A DNA stretch of 7,472 nucleotides, taken from NCBI GenBank assembly GCA_902795715.1, contig CADBME010000028.1, positions 1 to 7,472 of the forward strand, in the 5' to 3' direction. The DNA is from an uncultured Lachnospiraceae bacterium (GTDB taxonomy: Bacteria; Bacillota_A; Clostridia; Lachnospirales; Lachnospiraceae). Shown here one piece after another: positions 2,991-4,094 of the stretch. Within the stretch, counting starts at the first letter, position 1; each line of letters begins with the position of its first letter. The notes below the pieces were generated by a model. It had not been told where the DNA came from and ran no database searches. It was given only the letters and a program-made list of their open reading frames with translations. The position numbers were made by a program, and so were the translations under genes.

Positions 2991-4094
2991 TCAGGAAATC
3001 AGTGAGAAGGGGAAGATGGTAATCTTTCCCGTGCCCGGATACATCTTTCCAAAGCCCAGGTCTTCGAGAATGATGGTTCCTTCCGAACGCCCTGTGAATT
3101 CAACCTGAACCCTTATTCGGGTGGTCTTGAGCGGTCTTTGGGGAAGATCCCTTATCTCACAGGCCGATCCTTCCATCTCATTTTCCATGGTGTTGTGGAA
3201 GAAAAACTCAACCCGATTGCTTTTATCCAGAATGATATCCAGACTTCCCGAGGTATTATACCACTCTTTTCCGATCGATGTGATGGGAACGTACCTGGAT
3301 TTTCCACCCTCGGAGGCCACGATTCCGACGGTATGGCAGACCATGTCCGGTCCGTCCAGCAAAATCATGCCTTCATCCATAAGGGGAACTGTCCCGGTCG
3401 CCAGCAGGCAGGCGCCGCTGGCGAAAATATTTTGCCCCAGAAAAACTCTTCGGCCGGCGCAAAGGTAGGTCAGAGTTTTCTTCATCCAGCTTCCATCAAA
3501 TCCGTCTCCGGTAAGAAAGATGATGTTGGTCGGATTTTTGGCCAGGAACTGACGGATCATTTTGCCGAAAACCTGATCCTGGTCCGGAGCCCCCCGGATC
3601 ACCCCTTCCTTGAGAAGGTCAATTTCCCGGATTCTGCCCCGGTAAGCCTTCTGCTTGGTCCGGTGAATCTGGTCAACCCAGACACATTGGAGGGTATCCT
3701 CCGAGTAATTCAGCAGCAGGGTGTTCCGGTCCCATACCATTTTCTCCTGATGGAAAACATATTCTACAAAAGCACGGAAACGGCTGATCACCTGGCATCC
3801 ATGTCTGGATATCCACTCATGGGGCAGGAGATCGGCGAGCTCCTGCCGGTGATCCTCATCGGCATTTTCAAGGCACAAGACCATGTTGCTGAAATCTTCC
3901 GGCGAAATACTTTTTTCCTTGAAGGCGGCGAACAGGTGTCCGAGACCCACCCGGATATAATCATGAGCCTGATCCTCCGGAATCGGAAAACTTTCTTCTT
4001 CTATCTCCTTTTTTGCCTCATCATAGACACTCAGGGACAGAGCCGTTCTCGAAAGATCGATCCCCGCAAAGGTTCTGGTTGTCAGTTGTTCCAT
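2991..4094 (-). CDS. Divergent Hsp70/actin-fold (ASKHA-like) protein, 367 aa, probable pseudo-ATPase
   Basis: What is seen: residues 9-24 (FAGIDLSRTALSLSVY) match the phosphate-1 strand-turn-strand of Hsp70 (GIDLGTT), with D13 kept but the glycine/threonine turn changed. Residues 124-140 sit where phosphate-2 (DLGGGT) is expected but lack its glycines. LTGDGF at 194-199, followed by a helix and RVFLGQNIFASGAC at 216-229, fits the adenosine motif and the closing GA helix. Residues about 255-355 are beta-rich, with a CEIRDLPQRPLKTTRIRVQV stretch (312-331) like the F-x-L-x-G-I-P...I-x-V-x-F strands of the Hsp70 substrate-binding domain. No helical lid or EEVD tail follows; it ends FPFSLIS. It may belong to a DUF5716-like clostridial family, which I recall but have not verified. 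ATP binding is doubtful. The ATG at 4094 has AGGAG 8 bases upstream. It sits 24 bases after the giant gene, and co-transcription is likely. Confidence 0.8.
   Translation of the reverse strand: MEQLTTRTFAGIDLSRTALSLSVYDEAKKEIEEESFPIPEDQAHDYIRVGLGHLFAAFKEKSISPEDFSNMVLCLENADEDHRQELADLLPHEWISRHGCQVISRFRAFVEYVFHQEKMVWDRNTLLLNYSEDTLQCVWVDQIHRTKQKAYRGRIREIDLLKEGVIRGAPDQDQVFGKMIRQFLAKNPTNIIFLTGDGFDGSWMKKTLTYLCAGRRVFLGQNIFASGACLLATGTVPLMDEGMILLDGPDMVCHTVGIVASEGGKSRYVPITSIGKEWYNTSGSLDIILDKSNRVEFFFHNTMENEMEGSACEIRDLPQRPLKTTRIRVQVEFTGRSEGTIILEDLGFGKMYPGTGKITIFPFSLIS

Follow-up and report, generated by a model that had tools for sequence, protein, structure and literature searches.

The DUF5716 gene and its Hsp70-like parts

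The stretch of DNA analysed here (7,472 nucleotides, hereafter the window) comes from an uncultured Lachnospiraceae bacterium (contig CADBME010000028.1, positions 1 to 7,472) and carries four genes on the minus strand, which follow one another in the sense of transcription as the end of a DUF5717 gene, a DUF5716 gene, a gene for a tetratricopeptide repeat (TPR) protein and valS. The DUF5716 gene (2991..4094, minus strand) encodes a protein of 367 amino acids, the shortest form of its family; it starts with ATG and has a ribosome-binding-like AGAGGAGAGG 5' of the start. Its product scores 243.2 bits with the Pfam model PF18980 (DUF5716_C; E 3.9e-72), against a curated cut-off of 34.7 bits; this family is named but uncharacterised and is listed in Pfam as one of unknown function. 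A preliminary description of the gene had read it as a degenerate Hsp70-like protein, an interpretation supported by the fold search, the intermediates that match two families and the tree presented below.

The structure prediction and fold search proposed in that description have now been run. In the AlphaFold2 (AF2) model (predicted local distance difference test, pLDDT, 93), an actin-like domain derived from the Hsp70 nucleotide-binding domain (NBD; residues 7-235, 3390..4076, minus strand) precedes the beta-sandwich of the substrate-binding domain (SBD-beta; residues 249-367, 2994..3350, minus strand), as in Hsp70. The helical lid (SBD-alpha) is missing, and the protein indeed stops where it would begin: the last model residues, 362-367, align with DnaK 501-513 (7krt, 7kru and 7krw) and are followed by the C-terminus. 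Subdomain IIB of the NBD is lost as well, eight printed alignment columns being gaps in 23/23 rows of the short classes A and B and filled in 45/45 others, and the loss of subdomain IB is read from the alignment and the secondary structure of the model. Thus, the shortness noted in the preliminary description does involve the missing lid, but it is also due to the loss of IIB and IB.

The Hsp70-order motifs quoted there (GIDL, LTGDGF, GQNIFASGA and DLPQRP) were all found at the residues given for them. On the minus strand, the phosphate-1 site reads GIDLSRT (residues 11-17, 4044..4064; GIDLGTT in DnaK), the phosphate-2 site reads NYSEDT (residues 129-134, 3693..3710; DLGGGT in DnaK), and LTGDGF stands in the place of the adenosine motif (residues 194-199, 3498..3515; VGGSTR in DnaK). 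GQNIFASGA (residues 220-228, 3411..3437) corresponds in the alignment to NPDECVAIGA of DnaK minus three residues, and DLPQRP lies at residues 316-321. Motifs were counted over 288 distinct short-form sequences of at least 350 amino acids that match the A1 profile at 1e-10, shorter ones being excluded. The set, which derives from the two earliest protein searches and the loci collected by that stage, comprises 193 search proteins (including a fusion, P0093, described below), 94 locus frames and the window protein; it falls to 285 once sequences contained in others are removed, close relatives being otherwise left in. GTT and GGGT, whose absence from the window protein was remarked on previously, are missing from the whole set, with GTT at phosphate-1 and GGGT at phosphate-2 each in 0/288 short forms and an adenosine GGS/T in 1/288, while the glycine of the later GA motif is kept in 287/288. 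DUF5716 resembles DnaK in domain order and in the fold of the NBD and SBD-beta, but differs from it in having no phosphate loops, no IIB or IB and no lid.

Descent of DUF5716 from Hsp70

A protein search at E≤1e-3 yielded 92 proteins, including one with exactly the query sequence. Two classes are found among these relatives: class A, mostly of about 367 amino acids, which includes the window protein, and class B, of about 410, whose extra residues line up with a portion of the Hsp70 IB region. Over 67 sequences, 22 columns are invariant, many of them in the LTGxGF/GRRVFxGQN stretch. The ratio of nonsynonymous to synonymous substitution rates (dN/dS) was 0.086 for the window and L001 and 0.042 and 0.10 in two more pairs, dS being computable in three of the six pairs tried; these sequence comparisons strongly indicate that DUF5716 is under purifying selection. 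Together, the 92 relatives, the PF18980 match and this selection argue against a chance open reading frame. DUF5716 was found in 195/200 Lachnospiraceae genomes, with two matches in G521 and G528 and a single one in the rest. In G521, two DUF5716 operons lie on separate contigs (L115 and L116), one with a coiled-coil gene and the other continuing into valS, which reflects either a true duplication or a mixed bin.

The window protein had no listed match to PF00012 (HSP70) at E≤1 or at E≤10, and PF00012 is not among the 25 families listed, of 38, over the 67 members, where one weak match might be hidden. The link to Hsp70 is provided by longer relatives in the order. Among 246 genomes of Lachnospirales (the order of G001, the Anaerobutyricum hallii genome that carries L014), 117 matched PF18980 at E≤1e-3 and 109 exceeded its cut-off. 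Their best E-values split into two groups, 35 genomes at ≤2e-49 and 82 at ≥2.3e-28, the best matches of the latter lying mostly in frames of about 490-590 amino acids. In a sample of the class, 16/391 genomes passed the cut-off, each of which is also present in the order sample; a 17th match, under the cut-off, is absent from it. One long form, a protein of 523 amino acids (L121:7282-8853), exceeds both cut-offs, with 93.5 bits for PF18980 and 63.6 bits for PF00012, and both models were found in 115 of its 120 listed relatives (135 found), whose sources include Defluviitalea phaphyphila, Defluviitaleaceae and Epulopiscium. Hsp70-2, a paralogue from the same locus, also scores on PF18980 (38.7 bits), so in some of the 82 weakly matching genomes the match may be Hsp70-2 instead of the long DUF5716-like protein. 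The missing link is the DUF5716 protein of G590 (L118), which has 494 amino acids, an E-value of 3.4e-74 with PF18980 and no listed HSP70 match; it keeps the IIB stretch, its loops are gone, and a GrpE fusion of reduced length still stands in its operon along with Hsp70-1 and Hsp70-2.

In a maximum-likelihood tree (68 rows, 23 of classes A and B and 45 others), the path leading away from the general Hsp70s passes Hsp70-2, then eight of the long forms, and then L123, L118, class B and class A in turn. Classes A and B group with L118 and L123, two of the ten long forms, at 100/97, and class A is a single clade (100/100) that lies inside class B (98/88); separate clades are formed by the general Hsp70s, by Hsp70-1 and by an Hsp70 with a vWA domain (Hsp70-vWA). 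Moreover, Hsp70-2 shares with DUF5716 the motifs LPxRP (9/9 rows) and DxG[FY] (8/9 rows); LPxRP occurs in no Hsp70-1, vWA or general Hsp70 row, and DxG[FY] in one vWA row only. The intermediates carrying both families and the tree indicate, at the level of sequence, that DUF5716 is an Hsp70-derived lineage, which is a statement of homology and not of function.

Gene order and the ancestral multi-Hsp70 operon

Ten loci (L117-L126) were taken for gene order. The series DUF5717, Hsp70-1, GrpE fusion, DUF5716-like gene, Hsp70-2, Hsp70-vWA and TPR gene is uninterrupted in L117, L119, L121, L123, L124 and L125, and is present with one additional frame in L126; the coiled-coil gene and valS come next in L123 and L125. 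L118 has the same order, with Hsp70-vWA and the TPR gene each split into two frames (205-3384, minus strand), which are either frame breaks or assembly errors. L120 contains additional frames and begins at Hsp70-1, and L122 holds the middle part of the operon only, with an unmatched frame of 571 amino acids at the place of Hsp70-1. In a Pfam scan of L121, Hsp70-1, Hsp70-2 and Hsp70-vWA all exceeded the HSP70 cut-off, and the GrpE fusion carried GrpE at residues 517-641 (E 3e-13) after about 500 extra N-terminal residues. The three nucleotide motifs are intact in all 23 rows of Hsp70-1, Hsp70-2 and Hsp70-vWA and in 0/10 DUF5716-like rows, which argues that the DUF5716 line was already degenerate beside paralogues that look functional by their motifs.

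The distribution of these genes follows the split between long and short forms. PF18980 and DUF5717 occur together in 115 of the 246 order genomes, PF18980 alone in two and DUF5717 alone in six (DUF5717 in 121 overall). The GrpE fusion is found in 85 of them: in 78/82 genomes with weak PF18980 matches, in 0/34 short-form genomes, in G590, which has both, and in the six that have DUF5717 but no PF18980 match (G592, G629, G648, G703, G712 and G765), where PF18980 was lost, is missing from the assembly or has diverged too far. Among the 200 family genomes, the fusion gave one weak match, in a frame of 245 amino acids that is probably an ordinary GrpE. For all 17 Hsp70s above 450 amino acids found in seven short-form genomes, the best match was a general Hsp70 reference (either DnaK or a second group that we take to be HscC-like) and not an operon paralogue; four of the 17 themselves served as references, and these too match their next general reference better than the paralogues.

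The genes around the short form are also conserved. Among 80 named loci, DUF5717 lies at most 400 bases upstream of DUF5716 in 74 of the 76 with room, the exceptions being L027, with about 2 kb between the two genes, and L030, where none was found; a TPR gene adjoins DUF5716 downstream in 76/76 loci with room. In genome G460, DUF5716 and the TPR protein form a natural in-frame fusion of 709 amino acids (P0093; L113:4815-6944, minus strand), which suggests the TPR protein as a partner. The fourth gene, called coiled-coil by eye, comes next in 50/51 class B loci with room (the exception being L046, and six contig-end loci having been dropped) and in 0/23 class A loci. A search with the L036 protein found it nowhere in five class A genomes or in the genome of L046, and found it in four other class B genomes. 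One or two transmembrane-like stretches were seen in 6/7 coiled-coil proteins checked, and none in the L117 frame (395 amino acids).

In the window, the DUF5717 gene (4119..7472, minus strand), whose N-terminus lies outside the window, matches PF18984 (E 1.2e-191) and PF18983 (E 2.8e-51); its model (pLDDT 86, predicted TM-score 0.61) shows long TPR-like solenoids and several beta domains, of which that at 139-236 is PapD-like. The TPR protein (2070..2942, minus strand) is degenerate, with a TPR_2 match below the cut-off (E 1.2e-4) compared with E 5e-26 in one ancestral-type protein scanned, and is assigned with the help of its adjacency to DUF5716 and the fusion; its start looks likelier to be the ATG at 2942 than the TTG at 2987. 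Because the gaps among DUF5717, DUF5716 and the TPR gene are 24 and 48 bases, with plausible ribosome-binding sites, the three genes look like a single operon. The valyl-tRNA synthetase gene valS (3..2021, minus strand; tRNA-synt_1 E 2.4e-149) lies 3' of the module in 23/23 class A loci and is a conserved downstream neighbour, probably outside the module. Its frame at 2021 begins 5' of a likelier start at about 1934 (MATEMSKTYNP...). Firmicutes valS genes often carry a T-box, but none was found here with Rfam. An open frame of 587 amino acids (3138-4901, plus strand), antisense to DUF5716 and DUF5717, is probably a codon-phase by-product; long minus-strand frames also displaced expected genes during frame picking in L001, L011 and L013.

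Possible functions of a reduced Hsp70

We favour, as fairly probable, the explanation that DUF5716 is a pseudo-Hsp70 from the ancestral multi-Hsp70 operon and now works as an ATP-independent scaffold or low-affinity peptide holder. Its ATP-handling parts are lost, yet the gene is carefully preserved, which suggests a role in holding or connecting other proteins at no cost in ATP. The ancestral operon would have comprised DUF5717, Hsp70-1, the GrpE fusion, the DUF5716-like gene, Hsp70-2, Hsp70-vWA, the TPR gene and the coiled-coil gene, and DUF5716 would descend from one of its Hsp70 paralogues. Lachnospiraceae would then have lost the ATP-driven members and the GrpE part and retained the DUF5716 subunit, with a stepwise shrinkage from about 523 to 494, about 410 and 367 amino acids. 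DUF5716 may be a fixed part of a complex that also contains the TPR protein and the solenoid of DUF5717, the coiled-coil protein may tie this complex to the membrane in most relatives, and the beta-sandwich may grip a client, or a segment of a partner, with no nucleotide to drive its opening and closing. A more far-reaching proposal, for which we see somewhat less than an even chance, is that a complete and dedicated machine (four Hsp70 paralogues with a GrpE fusion of their own, vWA, TPR, Ig-solenoid and membrane coiled-coil) was stripped of its entire ATP engine at the base of Lachnospiraceae, and that the one subunit already inactive became a single-copy core component of this family that needs no ATP, an Hsp70 acting purely as a scaffold that holds peptides.

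Several observations weigh against this explanation. Residues able to support nucleotide binding are kept, namely the phosphate-1 Asp (278/288) and the first adenosine Gly (288/288). The fold is a model prediction, and the actin-like half, taken by itself, scores about equally (Z within 1) against Hsp70 and against dehydratase activators, PilM and FtsA. The profile comparison against Hsp70 that the preliminary description had proposed succeeded only in part: with 67 DUF5716 rows against 12 Hsp70s, it recovered the phosphate-1 strand (25 columns, probability 28, E 6e-4) but not the rest. The tree has long branches where DUF5716 meets Hsp70, which drew a warning from the program and makes the nearest canonical paralogue uncertain. 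No DUF5716 match was found in 5/200 family genomes. Finally, the arch residues that cover the peptide in DnaK, which we take to be M404 and A429 in its numbering, are not kept in a distant alignment, so DnaK-type client binding appears doubtful; in the same alignment, the hydrophobic floor positions of the groove are conserved.

It is possible, though we judge it unlikely, that DUF5716 retains a bound nucleotide in the role of a structural cofactor and does not hydrolyse it. The retained Asp and Gly fit this idea, and so do the many invariant columns in the LTGxGF/GRRVFxGQN stretch; however, that conserved patch could equally be a partner interface, and both glycine phosphate loops are gone together with IIB, the subdomain that normally clamps adenine. 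A precedent is Ssz1 of the fungal ribosome-associated complex (RAC), which is reported to be a non-canonical Hsp70 that binds ATP without hydrolysing it, has no SBD-alpha lid and keeps an SBD-beta that works together with a segment of a partner (PMC7083937). DUF5716 resembles Ssz1 in keeping SBD-beta without the lid, according to the model, and its Foldseek matches include the RAC entries 6sr6, 5mb9 and 7x3k. However, the NBD of Ssz1 binds ATP and Ssz1 pairs with a J-protein on the ribosome, whereas DUF5716 is bacterial and has neither IIB, IB nor phosphate loops; no J domain was found in Pfam scans of DUF5716 neighbours or ancestral operon proteins. By this comparison, DUF5716 is reduced further than Ssz1, and it may serve as a fixed scaffold or holder, a role that Ssz1 plays in part.

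It seems improbable to us that DUF5716 acts in trans on DnaK or on a different cellular Hsp70, whether to regulate it or to exchange its nucleotide in the manner of Hsp110. The seven short-form genomes searched keep DnaK, most also having a second Hsp70 elsewhere, and Foldseek also matches Sse1/Hsp110. However, Hsp110 exchange activity requires an ATP-bound NBD with IIB, which DUF5716 has lost, and DUF5716 travels with DUF5717 and the TPR gene while the dnaK genes lie at other loci beside dnaJ-like frames. We give very little credence to an unrelated actin-fold protein of the PilM, FtsA or BcrA type that gained its beta-sandwich independently: the equal scores of the actin-like half and the absence of HSP70 from the listed Pfam families would suit it, but the intermediates with both Pfam models, the same domain order, the operon shared with true Hsp70s, the tree placement and the LPxRP and DxG[FY] motifs common to Hsp70-2 oppose it. 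That the gene is decaying, as the stepwise loss of its parts and operon partners might suggest, is hardly credible, being already contradicted, unless the selection data are biased, by its presence in 195/200 genomes, dN/dS of 0.04-0.10 in three pairs and 22 invariant columns in 67 sequences.

The operon also recalls the GAP1-N2 GTPase-centred systems of actinobacteria and firmicutes, whose neighbourhoods combine HSP70 and GrpE with FNIII-repeat proteins fused to DnaJ or TPR and, in some cases, with a second, reduced HSP70 (Kaur et al. 2020; PMC7159879). As described there, those systems are mobile and GTPase-centred and their second HSP70 has no peptide-binding domain, whereas the gene order found here is conserved, the short form is mostly single-copy and DUF5716 keeps that domain; Pfam scans of the window and of ancestral operon proteins found no GTPase domain. 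Pseudo-Hsp70s as a kind and the family name PF18980 were already known, and a specialist could have drawn the Hsp70 link, because the names Hsp70 family protein and molecular chaperone DnaK are already attached in databases to some long relatives. In the literature searched, we found no description of the Hsp70 origin of the family, of the GrpE fusion itself or of the ancestral operon, which joins this fusion to three Hsp70s that look canonical and a fourth that is degenerate.

These results supply an origin for a near-universal gene of unknown function in a large family of gut bacteria. They also provide natural intermediates, in graded steps, between canonical Hsp70 and a form that has neither phosphate loops nor lid nor subdomains IB and IIB, and make two questions testable: what an Hsp70 is capable of without any nucleotide cycle, and whether pseudo-chaperones can outlive their active partners.
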